A stretch of DNA of 44,477 nucleotides, from contig QZIP01000046.1 in NCBI GenBank assembly GCA_003599595.1, positions 1-44,477 of the forward strand, given 5' to 3'. Position 1 is the first letter of the stretch. The number at the start of each line of letters is the position of its first letter. Positions 17,072 through 22,206 of the stretch are shown here, in pieces. The stretch comes from Candidatus Parcubacteria bacterium (GTDB lineage: Bacteria > Patescibacteriota > Microgenomatia > Levybacterales > GWA1-39-11). Below the pieces are notes generated by a model, which ran no database searches, was not told the origin of the DNA, and worked only from the letters and a program-made list of their open reading frames with translations. A program made the position numbers and the translations under genes.

Positions 17072-18307
17072 TTAGGCTTCTTGCGGTTTAGATATAGAAT
17101 TTTTAATTAGATTAGGATCTTGGGAAATGGTTTTTTGTTCTCTGGTTTTTAGGTTTTTTATAGTTACATTATTTTTTTCTGCTTCTTCAGGGCCGATTAT
17201 TACAACAAATGGAATTCCTTTTTTGTCTGCATATTTTATTTGCTTTTCAAGTTTGGCGTTTGGATCAGGATAAAGCTCTATATTAATATTACTTTCCCTT
17301 AATTTTATTGAGGTTTCTTGTGATTTTTTGAATAAATCAGGTGAAAAGATAGTTACTAAAACTTGGGATTTTGTTTTTATTTGTGGGATTAATCCAAGCT
17401 GTTCTGCTGCTTCAAGCGTGCGGTCAAAACCTAATCCGAAGCCGGTTCCTGGAATGTTTACTCCTGCAACTTGGGTAACCAGTTTGTCAAAGCGTTCTCC
17501 TCCCAGAACAGAGCCTGCGGTGTATTCAGGAATAACAACTTCCCAGATGGGGCCTGTGGAATAAGAGAATGAGCGGGCGATTGTGGGATCGAAAGTGTAC
17601 CAATTTTCATCAAATCCTACGTTTTTTAAGTATTCAAGAATAACCTTAATTGTTTCATTGGGTTGTAGATTTGTAATTGTTTCAAGATACTTTTGCGCCA
17701 TTTCTTCATCTATTCCTTTTCTTACCATTTCCTTGATGACTTCTTCTCTGCCAACTTTTTTTAGTTTGTCGATTGCTACTATTGCAGGGTAGGGTAAATC
17801 CTTTAGTAAGCTTCTGTCATTTATTAATACTTTTGCTTGTTTAAAACCTAGGCGTCTATAAATATCTAAAGACAGTGCAATTATCTCAGCGTCAGCATAT
17901 GGAGATTCTACGCCAAAAATGTCTGCGTCACATTGGAGTAGTTCTCTGTAACGGCCTCTTTGAGGGTTTTCCGCTCTGAAGGCGGGTTGTATCTGATATC
18001 TTTTAAAGGGCATAGGAATTTGTTGATAGTATTGTCCTACTACGCGGCAAGCCGGTACTGTTTGGTCATAGCGGAGAGCCACATCTCTTCCGCCTTGATC
18101 TTTAAATTTATAGAAAAGTTTCTCATCTTCTCCAATTTGACCAGCAAAAATCTCTAAGGGTTCAAGAGTTGGGGTTTCTAAGGGATCGTATCCCCAAAGC
18201 TCAAACACTTCTATGATTTTATTTTTTAGCCATTGTCTTTTAAGAGCTTCTTTTGGTAAAAAATCCCTAAAACCTTTTAGTGTTTTTGGTTGTATCATAT
18301 TGTTCAT
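17072..18307 (-). CDS. hisS: Histidyl-tRNA synthetase
   Basis: KGFRDFLPKEALKRQWL, LRYDQTVPACRVV, FRAENPQRGRYRELLQCDADIFG, GTGFGLGFDRTLEAAEQLG. Confidence 0.95.
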   Translation of the reverse strand: MNNMIQPKTLKGFRDFLPKEALKRQWLKNKIIEVFELWGYDPLETPTLEPLEIFAGQIGEDEKLFYKFKDQGGRDVALRYDQTVPACRVVGQYYQQIPMPFKRYQIQPAFRAENPQRGRYRELLQCDADIFGVESPYADAEIIALSLDIYRRLGFKQAKVLINDRSLLKDLPYPAIVAIDKLKKVGREEVIKEMVRKGIDEEMAQKYLETITNLQPNETIKVILEYLKNVGFDENWYTFDPTIARSFSYSTGPIWEVVIPEYTAGSVLGGERFDKLVTQVAGVNIPGTGFGLGFDRTLEAAEQLGLIPQIKTKSQVLVTIFSPDLFKKSQETSIKLRESNINIELYPDPNAKLEKQIKYADKKGIPFVVIIGPEEAEKNNVTIKNLKTREQKTISQDPNLIKNSISKPQEA

Positions 18308-19362
18308 ATAATATCATTCTTTTTGCGTTTAGAGCAACTATTGCTTTTATTTAATATCATAATTGCCGTTTTAATTCTTTGTTTTTCTGTAGGGAAGCAG
18401 GTGGTATTTGATAGTAGTATCACTGTTCGATTACTATTTTGTTCTGTTAGCATAATATTGTTAAATCCTACCCAACAACCATCTTGAAATATTATTTTCT
18501 TTCCCTTGTAATTTCTGATAAACCAGCTAAAACCACATTCCCCTACATTTCCATTTGACAATTCCTGATTAGATAACGCCTCTCTTAAAGTATTTCTACT
18601 TACCAGTAGTTCTTTATTCCAGACGTTCTGCCAGATAGAAAGATCTCTTATTGAAGAGTATATTCCCTCGTCTCCAATAATATAATTTAAAGGATCATAA
18701 TCAAACAACTTAAAATACTTGTTTATTATTTTATAGCCTAAAGCCCTATTTTTGATAAAAGATTTTGTTTCGTCCATTACAATAGTATTATTCAATTTCA
18801 GAGGTAAGAATATATTTGTAGTTAAAAAACTAGAATATTTCATTCCTGAAACTTTCTCAATTATTAACGCCAAGATAACATAGCCCGAATCGCTATATAA
18901 AAATTGGGTTCCAGGTTTAAATAATGTTTTTGTTTGATTCTTCAAGATATTTAAAGCATCATGCATGGTTGGTTCCTCATTGTTTTTAATGACTTTGTAC
19001 AAAGGTTTTTCGTGATCCGGAATACCGGACGTGTGGGTCAGTAGTTGTCTAACGGTAATATTTTCGTTCCATTTGGGAAGATCTATAAATTTTGTAATAT
19101 TGTTGTTGAAATTAAGTTCACCTTTCTCTTTTAAAATCATTATTGCCATTGCTGTGAATGGTTTAGTTAATGAAGCCAAGCGAAAAGAAGTAGTGGGAGT
19201 TATAGAAGTGCTTCTCTCAACGTTTGATAGTCCTATGCATTGCTCAAAAATTATTTTTCCATTTTGCACCACACAAGTTGCATATCCAGGAGTATTGCAA
19301 TTAAATTGTTTGAATAAAGTTATATTTTTCATTTTCTTTTTGCAATTTGTCTTTCTTCCCAT
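18304..19362 (-). CDS. Serine hydrolase, beta-lactamase / penicillin-binding-protein-like (class C fold)
   Basis: SLTKPFTAMAI (SxxK), TSGIPDH, YSDSGYVIL (YxN-like) motifs. Confidence 0.85.
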   Translation of the reverse strand: MGRKTNCKKKMKNITLFKQFNCNTPGYATCVVQNGKIIFEQCIGLSNVERSTSITPTTSFRLASLTKPFTAMAIMILKEKGELNFNNNITKFIDLPKWNENITVRQLLTHTSGIPDHEKPLYKVIKNNEEPTMHDALNILKNQTKTLFKPGTQFLYSDSGYVILALIIEKVSGMKYSSFLTTNIFLPLKLNNTIVMDETKSFIKNRALGYKIINKYFKLFDYDPLNYIIGDEGIYSSIRDLSIWQNVWNKELLVSRNTLREALSNQELSNGNVGECGFSWFIRNYKGKKIIFQDGCWVGFNNIMLTEQNSNRTVILLSNTTCFPTEKQRIKTAIMILNKSNSCSKRKKNDII

Positions 19363-20918
19363 TGATAATATCTTCTCATTTCATTATTTTTTATAGGGGT
19401 GACAATGGTTAGATTTCCTTGTGATCCTAAATAAGCCATTTGACAACATCTCATTTCTTCAAAATTAACGATTACAATTCCGTTTCCCCTCATCTGCATT
19501 TCTTCAAAAAATACTCCTTCCCCCGCATATACTCCATAATATTTTAATTCTCTTTCTTCAAGGACATCATTTTCTATATTTGTAATCCCATTTTGAGCAA
19601 AGTATGTTTTGCCGCTTTTTAGTCCTTCCCTTTTGATTTTATTAATGTTTGGCGATGATTTTACTGCTGTTTCTCCATCTTTGGAGTACTCTTGAGGTTT
19701 TTTTGTTGCATTGTTTTTGTTTAGGTATTCATCCCACCTGAGAAAGTCAATTGAAGCATTTGAAGGCAGCATAAGCGAATTAAATTTTGCTTTCAGGAAT
19801 GTAGCCGTAGAGTTAATAATCCATTCCCTTTCTTCTTGACTTTGAAGATATTTCCAAACTCTGCTGTCAAATGCTTCATTGCTTGGGATAAGAATGGTTA
19901 TATTAGGATTACCGATGGAAGATAAAACTTCGGCTATTTCCTGAATTCTTTGTGAAAAATACAATGTTATTGCTGCATCAAGATTATTATTGATAGAACA
20001 AGTGGGCATTTCTCCTCTTTGGTTCTTAAACCATTTAAACCCGATGCAATTCCAAATAAGGAAGTCTACAGGTTTTCCTTGAGAAAGCTTGACAAGGTTT
20101 TCAGCAAATTTTGCAGCATTTTGTCCATAAATCCAGTCTTTTCCAAAACCAACTTTTTGGAACCACTCAAACACTTTCATTATTTTTGTTCCTTCTGCTT
20201 CCGTATAAATAATTTCTTCAACACTTTTATATTTTTGATCGGGTTTTGGAGGAGTATTTAATTCTTTCATAGTTCCGTAGCCCATAATTTCAGCTTCTTG
20301 AGTAGAGACGAATTTTATTTGGGTTTTTTCAAGCGCATTTCTTCTAATTGCCGAATTAACGGCACTTGGTTTTATATCAACTTTTTGAGCCGGACCTCCT
20401 CCTGGAGGTCTTGAAAAGTATCTTCCTTCTTTTCTTGCTCTTTTTGCAGACACTCCAAATCTTCTTGCTTGATTTATATCTAATACTGCTGGTTGTTTGG
20501 GGAGTTCTGGCGTGTAAACTATAGATTGCATAGTTAATCCGTTAAGAGAAAATGAAATAGGGTATTTGGATAAAATATTTATTACCTTTTCTGGGGAGAG
20601 ATTTGTTTTTCTTGAGATTTCTTTTACTGAAATGTCCGGGAGTTCAGTAATGTCTTGTGATATCCAAGGTTTAAGAATTGTTATTGCTGCCTGTTTTATT
20701 GTAGGTGCTATTTCATCTTTTTCCTTATTCCAAATTCCTTCGGTTATTGCATTGTTTGAATATCCTGTCCATTCCCTCAGAATTTCTGCAGTGTTTGCAT
20801 TTTGACCACTTTGTCCGTTCCTGTTTCCACTGGCAATTTCTTTACAAATTTCAGATGGTGTAAATCCATCGTTTTTTAATTTTTGTTCAAATTGTGGTGT
20901 AAAAGTTCTTGTTTCCAT
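19329..20918 (-). CDS. Unknown 529-aa protein, possible HTH-like N-terminal region and alpha/beta C-terminal domain
   Basis: Long ORF overlapping serine hydrolase start by 34 bp; 4 bp from the DapF-like ORF; family not recognised with confidence. Confidence 0.8.
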   Translation of the reverse strand: METRTFTPQFEQKLKNDGFTPSEICKEIASGNRNGQSGQNANTAEILREWTGYSNNAITEGIWNKEKDEIAPTIKQAAITILKPWISQDITELPDISVKEISRKTNLSPEKVINILSKYPISFSLNGLTMQSIVYTPELPKQPAVLDINQARRFGVSAKRARKEGRYFSRPPGGGPAQKVDIKPSAVNSAIRRNALEKTQIKFVSTQEAEIMGYGTMKELNTPPKPDQKYKSVEEIIYTEAEGTKIMKVFEWFQKVGFGKDWIYGQNAAKFAENLVKLSQGKPVDFLIWNCIGFKWFKNQRGEMPTCSINNNLDAAITLYFSQRIQEIAEVLSSIGNPNITILIPSNEAFDSRVWKYLQSQEEREWIINSTATFLKAKFNSLMLPSNASIDFLRWDEYLNKNNATKKPQEYSKDGETAVKSSPNINKIKREGLKSGKTYFAQNGITNIENDVLEERELKYYGVYAGEGVFFEEMQMRGNGIVIVNFEEMRCCQMAYLGSQGNLTIVTPIKNNEMRRYYQWEERQIAKRK

Positions 20919-20922
20919 ATTT

Positions 20923-21816: not shown

Positions 21817-21851
21817 AGGGTATAGTTTAGACTTATTTTGGCACAAAACTT

Positions 21852-21872
21852 ACACCGCCTGAGGGACGGTGT
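21852..21872 (-). promoter_or_regulatory. Upstream hairpin whose 3' arm can instead pair with the terminator 5' arm
   Basis: Minus strand ACACCGTCCCTCAGGCGGTGT; GGCGGTGT is the exact complement of ACACCGCC of the terminator. Confidence 0.55.
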
Positions 21873-21921
21873 TATGATGATTTAATTCTTTGCCATTATT
21901 TATAGTTTTCATATGCTTAAA

Positions 21922-22206
21922 TTATTTTTTTAATCTTTTTAGAATGAGTTTGTAGCCTTCCATTCCTTTTGTTAGCCATTTGTTTATTCTAGCAATAGTG
22001 GTGCTACTCATTCCTGTTTCTTTTTCAATCTGTTCATATGATACTTTTTGATCCAACATTCTTGCTACTTTCCATCTGTTTACAAATTCTTTAATTTCTT
22101 TTTCTGTCAAAAGATCTCTTAAAAACCTTTTACATTCATCTTCTGTTTTGAGAGCAAGAATTGCTTTAAAAAGTTCTCTTATATCCTTATTTACTTCAAA
22201 TTTCAC
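21922..22206 (-). CDS. TrpR-related YerC/YecD-like DNA-binding protein (GTG start)
   Basis: LLTEKEIKEFVNRWKVARMLDQKVSYEQIEKETGMSSTTIARINKWL. Confidence 0.85.
   Translation of the reverse strand: MKFEVNKDIRELFKAILALKTEDECKRFLRDLLTEKEIKEFVNRWKVARMLDQKVSYEQIEKETGMSSTTIARINKWLTKGMEGYKLILKRLKK

Follow-up and report, generated by a model that had tools for sequence, protein, structure and literature searches.

Histidine racemases with the DapF fold are known from Fusobacterium nucleatum (HisR, FN1732) and from Staphylococcus aureus (CntK), the latter of which produces D-histidine (D-His) for staphylopine (PMC11602996). In Firmicutes, yerC encodes the histidine repressor, likewise named HisR, whose DNA binding needs L-histidine and whose consensus operator is cacTTTAnnnnnnTAAAgtg; the study describing it makes no mention of a racemase or of candidate phyla (PMC9413887). 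Here, we analyse a 44,477-nucleotide stretch from Candidatus Parcubacteria bacterium (contig QZIP01000046.1, assigned by GTDB to the Microgenomatia), hereafter the window, which is contig 5 of a 1.4-Mb genome that is 85% complete. Between yerC and hisS it carries what is very probably a histidine-controlled operon with a histidine racemase. In our estimate there is an even chance that the purpose of this operon is histidine salvage, i.e., the conversion of D-His or histidyl peptides to L-histidine (L-His) for histidyl-tRNA synthetase (HisRS) when histidine is short. The genes, in the order of transcription, are as follows (aa, amino acids).

21922 to 22206, minus strand: yerC, TrpR-family histidine repressor ortholog, 94 aa (TIGR02531, E 6.7e-26; PF01371, E 1.7e-24)
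20923 to 21711, minus strand: histidine racemase-type protein (HisR/CntK branch, DapF fold), 262 aa, putative catalytic residues Cys67 and Cys203
19329 to 20918, minus strand: 529-aa protein, with an N-terminal helical module (approx. residues 1-230) and a predicted core (approx. 265-529) resembling cyclodipeptide synthases (CDPSs) and tyrosyl-tRNA synthetase (TyrRS)
19332 to 20126, minus strand: CDPS-like core domain of the 529-aa protein, delimited by AlphaFold, Foldseek and invariant columns
18304 to 19332, minus strand: S12 (beta-lactamase-fold) serine hydrolase with a revised start (PF00144, E 9.4e-52; original open reading frame 18304-19362)
17072 to 18307, minus strand: hisS, histidine-tRNA ligase (TIGR00442, 347.7 bits against a cut-off of 286.75)

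All five open reading frames (ORFs) of an earlier note on this DNA are present on the minus strand, and the 4-base-pair (bp) overlap that it reported between the hydrolase gene and hisS is real, being an ATGA junction. The 34-bp overlap reported between the 529-aa and hydrolase genes is probably an annotation effect; relatives begin near the position of an internal ATG at 19332, and a start there yields another ATGA junction, likely with a 4-bp overlap. Regulation of the set, as proposed in that note, holds, whereas its description as a single five-gene unit does not, because the 210-bp spacer between yerC and the racemase gene carries a leader ORF and terminator-like hairpins. The set is thus yerC plus an attenuated four-gene operon.

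The racemase had been labelled DapF-like, with the suggestion that it might be an amino-acid racemase such as CntK, and comparison with both clades favours that suggestion. Its sole NCBIfam matches are the histidine racemase HisR (E 5.6e-24) and CntK (E 5.7e-23), and its closest solved structures are HisR (PDB 9cr6, E 1.9e-31) and CntK (6jis). The histidine contacts proposed for HisR are N18, E49, E65, E206, G68, N69, and S211 (PMC11602996). Counterparts of these and of the catalytic residues in the window racemase are N14, E43, E65, C67, G68, N69, E200, C203, A204, and S205, of which N14, E43, E65, G68, N69, E200, C203, and S205 do not vary among HisR, CntK and 23 relatives from the Microgenomatia, and A204 is replaced by Gly in many relatives. 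Fold, two-cysteine active site, Glu at C-2, the EQ(V/C)GF motif and all proposed histidine contacts are therefore common to the window protein, HisR and CntK. The window protein differs in its low identity, in its place in a histidine-controlled operon and in its company: there is no cntL or cntM, and the partners are instead a CDPS-like protein and an S12 hydrolase, or a GNAT domain and an M15 peptidase. A true DapF serving lysine or peptidoglycan synthesis, in an operon unrelated to histidine, would share the overall fold and the two catalytic cysteines. However, the DapF family PF01678 matches neither this protein in a Pfam search nor any ORF in 27 of 27 genomes, including that of the window at its 85% completeness, yet it detects 9 of 14 control genomes. 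Glu at C-2 and the closest models likewise point to histidine racemases, and the neighbourhood is kept across relatives without lysine genes, in line with the earlier remark that no other lysine/DAP gene lies nearby. A DapF identity is thus refuted by sequence, and we leave it next to no probability. By the same residues and profiles the protein is to be placed with the histidine racemases HisR/CntK and not with DapF, and its specificity for histidine is what these contacts suggest.

Two putative control devices lie upstream. The product of yerC scores 90.6 bits against TIGR02531 (cut-off 42.2) and, judged by this profile, is an ortholog of the histidine repressor, which bears out and narrows its former YerC/TrpR-like label. 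A scan with the Firmicutes motif, for which 0-0.05 sites are expected per locus (0.05 for the window), located tandem sites at the start of yerC.

22227 to 22246, minus strand: predicted YerC/HisR-type operator, distal copy (TACTTTATTACAGTAAAGTC on the plus strand, two mismatches to cacTTTAnnnnnnTAAAgtg)
22204 to 22223, minus strand: predicted histidine-repressor operator, proximal copy (CACTTTATTATACTAAAGTA on the plus strand, one mismatch)
22220 to 22248, minus strand: candidate sigma-70-type promoter of yerC, TTGACT-17-TATACT (10 of 12 matches, motif match only), covered by both operators

The proximal copy overlaps the -10 box and the GTG start of yerC. This arrangement of operators and promoter recurs in three other loci (L058, L062, and L139; L denotes loci and G genomes, L139 being the locus in G005, a genome of the same family as that of the window). 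Tandem pairs with 23-bp spacing are found in the window, L058 and L062, and single copies in L005, L057 and upstream of yerC in the his operon of G005. A further match with two mismatches, at window position 43576, falls within a coding frame, and the motif scan found no operator immediately upstream of the racemase gene. As in the Firmicutes regulons, a TrpR-family repressor, an identical 20-bp palindrome and his genes as targets are combined; unlike in those regulons, the host is a candidate-phylum bacterium, the sites stand in tandem 23 bp apart, the target in the window is a racemase cassette, and a leader-peptide attenuator is added.

21850 to 21912, minus strand: leader ORF, MKTINNGKELNHHNTVPQAV followed by a stop codon, with consecutive histidine codons CATCAT
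21798 to 21872, minus strand: putative attenuator, with hairpin 1:2 at 21872-21852 and terminator 3:4 at 21814-21798, followed by a T tail

The DNA 5' of the racemase gene, beginning ATGAAAACTATAAATAATGGCAAAGAATTAAATCATCATAACACC, translates as this leader peptide, which holds two histidine codons only, and is followed by the terminator. The leader RNA folds with z -3.9 relative to shuffled sequences (0 of 200 shuffles as stable), and by eye GGCGGTGTA (segment 2) can pair with TACACCGCC (segment 3). When a ribosome is placed on the histidine codons, the constrained fold displaces the terminator by 2:3 pairing in L062, L064, L015, and L071, whereas in the window it retained the terminator; 2:3 complementarity exceeds that of most shuffles in several further leaders. 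An Rfam search of the window at gathering thresholds gave no leader. Counterparts elsewhere read MKNRFEKFTEIHHHPLSGGL, MKLKLNKNLESHHHPLNGGL, MDFKLYNFITDILHHHPLVAG, etc., that upstream of hisG in G005 reads MENLNKKLDHHNTSLVGGVNDAG before its stop codon, and in L005, L057 and L062 the histidine codons fall among the final codons of yerC itself. A rule demanding two adjacent histidine residues near the end of a short ORF and a terminator 5' of the gene holds for 12 of the 23 racemase genes, whereas of the 611 remaining genes in these loci 5 obey it; four of those five are cassette genes (hutH, the M15-hisG fusion, a nucleoside hydrolase and a HAD gene). In its architecture, the leader with its terminator upstream of the racemase gene is a classical histidine attenuator.

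Similar leaders also precede other genes. In L017 (440-4309; genome G379), a nucleoside hydrolase, a HAD phosphatase and the N-terminal module of the 529-aa protein joined to a phosphoribosyltransferase-like half sit behind the leader MQNEINHHHLAPAG and a terminator, with yerC divergent. In L063 (1738-3243), the histidine ammonia-lyase HutH, a histidine-degrading enzyme inside a starvation-type regulon, has the leader MKIIHHHIFMKGVKSA and lies beside M20, racemase-GNAT and M15 genes. In L065 (7464-9415), an M15 dipeptidase fused to long-form HisG and followed by HisE has the leader MALHHHHFGG.

A third type of device appears in L006 and L016, whose leaders resemble T-boxes (RF00230, E 1.1e-3 and 1.5e-6; 24.7 and 35.9 bits against a gathering threshold of 93). 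Both carry the T-box core GGATGGGACCGCG and an invariant stem-I loop, GGA-GUCACGA-UCC, which holds the histidine codon CAC; L072 has the same features, by alignment only. Histidine regulation of the operon is well supported by these predicted elements, and the occurrence of three distinct predicted histidine-responsive devices on one gene family speaks for control that belongs to the racemase and is not acquired accidentally through a neighbour.

This bears on the possibility that the racemase and its partner genes serve some other purpose and are histidine-controlled merely because they were inserted before hisS, into an already regulated neighbourhood. A search of 374 genomes of the class with a racemase profile gave relatives in 28, and 23 loci were examined, 16 of which have hisS near the racemase gene. 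As a control, 20 loci were taken from the best matches of a hisS search of the class, none with an annotated racemase nearby; their usual order is peptidase (M24 or M20)-hisS-EamA-rpmE-prfA-degP-S41. The order hisS-EamA-rpmE-prfA-degP is thus ancestral, and a peptidase often occupies the slot before hisS, as an insertion would have it. For the same reason, linkage to EamA and hisS alone is weak evidence, and of the co-expression with HisRS proposed in the earlier note, the linkage stands but is partly inherited. However, of the 20 control loci just two (L128 and L109) have candidate leaders with paired histidine codons, cassettes away from hisS retain leaders or operators (L005, L055, L057, and L064), and hisG, hisE, and hutH join the cassettes, HisG being present in L062 and also in L065, where it is fused to the M15 peptidase and has the racemase, hisE and hisS as neighbours. 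An accidental insertion therefore seems unlikely. The yerC gene lies near hisS in only 1 of the 20 control loci versus at most two genes from the racemase in 8 of 23.

The slot itself is informative. In G005, the interval between yerC and hisS holds hisG, hisD, hisC fused to hisB-N, a chimeric hisB/hisF ORF, hisI, and hisE, and yerC is flanked by proS and a DHH-type gene, both of which also lie close to the cassette of the window. In the window, the slot used by this his operon is taken by the genes for the racemase, the CDPS-like protein and the S12 hydrolase, and HisG was not found in the window genome as far as it is complete (85%). At the level of sequence, the two gene orders establish that the his operon was replaced by the racemase cassette at the same locus. 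The chimeric ORF of G005 (L139, 1751-2452), a single frame joining the start of HisB to HisF, is possibly a deletion fusion or an assembly effect.

Gene order in relatives, which the earlier note had proposed to examine, is partly kept, beyond what chance would give: five Microgenomatia genomes, each from a different family, pair the racemase with the 529-aa-type protein; three of them also have the hydrolase, and two have yerC. The CDPS-like protein occurs only beside the racemase, directly behind it, in all five loci (window, L005, L006, L015, and L016). At other racemase loci there are GNAT domains (mostly fused), VanX-like M15 dipeptidases, M20 deacylases, nucleoside hydrolases, and HAD proteins. 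In the racemase tree, the five CDPS-linked and the GNAT-linked groups need one label change each, with weak support (77/73 and 85/86).

The hydrolase matches, besides PF00144, a D-aminopeptidase model (E 1.5e-26), and its best PDB matches are 2qmi and 4gdn, followed by LACTB, ClbP, and D-peptidases. Pab87 (2qmi) and FLP (4gdn) act on D-amino-acid peptides or esters. With these and with D-aminopeptidase (1ei5) the window protein shares the fold and the SxxK motif (SLTK); it differs in carrying YSD where YxN is expected and in its presumably cytoplasmic location, as no signal peptide was evident. The third motif is QDG (HSG in L015) in place of (K/H)xG. The enzyme is probably specific for D-peptides, and D-amino-acid-containing or histidyl peptides would be its substrates. 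At other loci, M15, M29-like or M20 peptidases take its role.

Taken as a salvage system, the operon would work as follows. With ample L-histidine, YerC would occupy the tandem operators and ribosomes would run through the His-His leader and let the terminator form; at low histidine or His-tRNA, transcription would start and read through into the four genes. The S12 hydrolase would then split D-amino-acid-containing or histidyl peptides, and the racemase would interconvert D-His and L-His, the latter being used by HisRS. Repression and attenuation by histidine mean expression when it is scarce, so the racemase would most sensibly make L-His from D-His, and D to L is the direction we infer. The earlier note had proposed that the operon makes or processes a D-amino-acid or histidine-derived small molecule; its link to histidine is upheld, whereas starvation-type control favours supply over synthesis of a product.

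The 529-aa protein is the most difficult component to place. Sequence searches against Pfam (including the CDPS family PF16715), NCBIfam, PHROGs, and PDB gave nothing useful, and a first scan of genome contigs and a viral scan gave no relatives. The AlphaFold model of the core, predicted with five sequences, has a predicted local distance difference test score of 90.8 and a predicted template modelling (TM) score of 0.89. Foldseek against PDB ranks a CDPS first (5ocd, E 2.5e-4, prob 1.00), then TyrRS (1.8e-3) and the isonitrile synthase PvcA (3e59, 6.0e-3), with TM approx. 0.5. By hhalign, the core aligned with nine CDPSs at E 1.1e-3 over 107 central columns, and 0 of 150 column shuffles scored as high; four CDPSs alone gave no signal, and that E value was reached after five patescibacterial sequences had been added. 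The alignment pairs IPSNEAFD with IPDIPAVD, an Arg of the next helix, RWDEYL with RWEDV, and a Tyr. On this model, the core has a fold of the Rossmann type of class-I aminoacyl-tRNA synthetases, like that of CDPSs and TyrRS.

That the core is instead an isonitrile synthase of the PvcA/IsnA type gains something from the PvcA hit and from an opening strand that looks similar by eye. PvcA, however, ranks under CDPS and TyrRS, and hhalign against two PvcA fragments (89 aa, the only two used) gave no signal, with 26 of 120 shuffles as high, compared with a CDPS alignment that beats 150 of 150; we regard this assignment as very unlikely. A CntL-like (nicotianamine synthase) role was also considered, as the core in L006 consists of 271 aa behind the racemase; it yielded no profile or fold hit.

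Invariant residues of the CDPS-like core are N290-C291, Y460, Y464, GEG 466-468, N485, and E487. In a mapping by secondary structure, Asn290-Cys291 follow strand 1 where CDPSs carry the catalytic Ser, so that CDPS Ser37 has no serine counterpart, and E467 fits CDPS E182. The positions of Tyr178 and Tyr202 differ: that of AlbC Y178 is V or M, and N485 and E487 follow the strand near that of Tyr202. Compared with CDPSs of PF16715 such as AlbC and ParcuCDPS, the protein is thus alike in predicted fold, central profile similarity and a Glu in the E182 region, and unlike in lacking the Pfam match, in replacing Ser by Asn-Cys, in an insertion before the first helix, and in its extra N-terminal module and link to a racemase. 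This module has a weak winged helix-turn-helix match (94-116) and recurs in L017 with a different C-terminal half, in an operon with a histidine leader; fragments or stand-alone copies of it lie apart from the racemase in L018 (2433-2948) and L140 (4968-5390). The module may thus serve regulation or docking within this regulon.

The CDPS fold, and the adjacency of the racemase and CDPS-like genes in five of five loci, could alternatively mean biosynthesis: the racemase would make D-His, the CDPS-like enzyme would join to it an aminoacyl group from aminoacyl-tRNA (His-tRNA via HisRS), and the hydrolase would mature or recycle the product, be it a cyclodipeptide, dipeptide or metallophore. Cyclo(His-Glu)/(His-Pro) is the product of a CDPS from Parcubacteria, another candidate phyla radiation group (PMC11372833, PMC5816076), staphylopine draws on D-His formed by CntK, and at other loci the racemase is fused to GNAT, whose fold also occurs in aminoacyl-tRNA-dependent transferases. 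Nevertheless, an operon turned on at histidine shortage chooses a poor time to spend histidine; the missing Ser37 counterpart, the absent PF16715 match and V or M at the Y178 position do not fit a CDPS; and neither hisS nor a racemase adjoins the true patescibacterial CDPS genes that were found. Nor is there evidence for an exporter, as EamA next to hisS is ancestral. We consider such biosynthesis possible, though on the doubtful side. Pseudopaline is a precedent for a metallophore with an EamA exporter, and a metallophore exported by EamA was likewise considered here; it was dropped because EamA adjoins hisS also where there is no racemase.

The probable substrate of the CDPS-fold protein is an aminoacyl-tRNA or a histidine conjugate, and our best guess is that the protein removes or transfers (D-)His from tRNA, guarding translation while D-His is present. 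That this protein founds a new aminoacyl-tRNA-dependent family dedicated to (D-)histidine, working with the racemase in a starvation-induced operon in which D-histidine replaces histidine biosynthesis, is a doubtful proposal; such an enzyme could, e.g., deacylate D-His-tRNA or use His-tRNA for conjugation, with Cys or Asn replacing the CDPS serine.

Several points weigh against histidine salvage by a histidine-controlled racemase. The window racemase scores under the NCBIfam equivalog cut-offs by far (85.2 bits against 400 and 81.8 against 300), and six relatives (L059, L068, L069, L070, L071, and L072) carry C67S while retaining the second Cys; the latter may be non-racemase variants. The Fisher p of 1e-15 for the leader rule overstates independence and is only indicative, because the rule was framed once leaders were already known and the loci share ancestry. 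Part of the hisS linkage is inherited, yerC is missing from three of the five loci with the CDPS-like gene, D-histidine is rare, and salvage offers no ready explanation for a CDPS-like synthase.

Two observations stand apart from these questions: an integrase/transposase-like ORF (rve type, judged by eye) at window positions 38829-39953, near a run of short genes, and a LOOT RNA (RF03000) in the region of a racemase cassette in L056 (8794-8912).

The study of HisR in F. nucleatum found no pathway for the enzyme, and what such racemases do in bacteria beyond staphylopine synthesis is a wider question. A racemase under histidine repressor and attenuator control, joined in relatives by T-box-like leaders, in the slot of a his operon of a same-family genome, would offer a direct and testable answer, namely salvage of D-histidine or histidyl peptides. 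The locus also indicates that amino-acid control is layered in the reduced genome of a candidate-phylum bacterium, and it points to a CDPS-like family that sequence searches miss.

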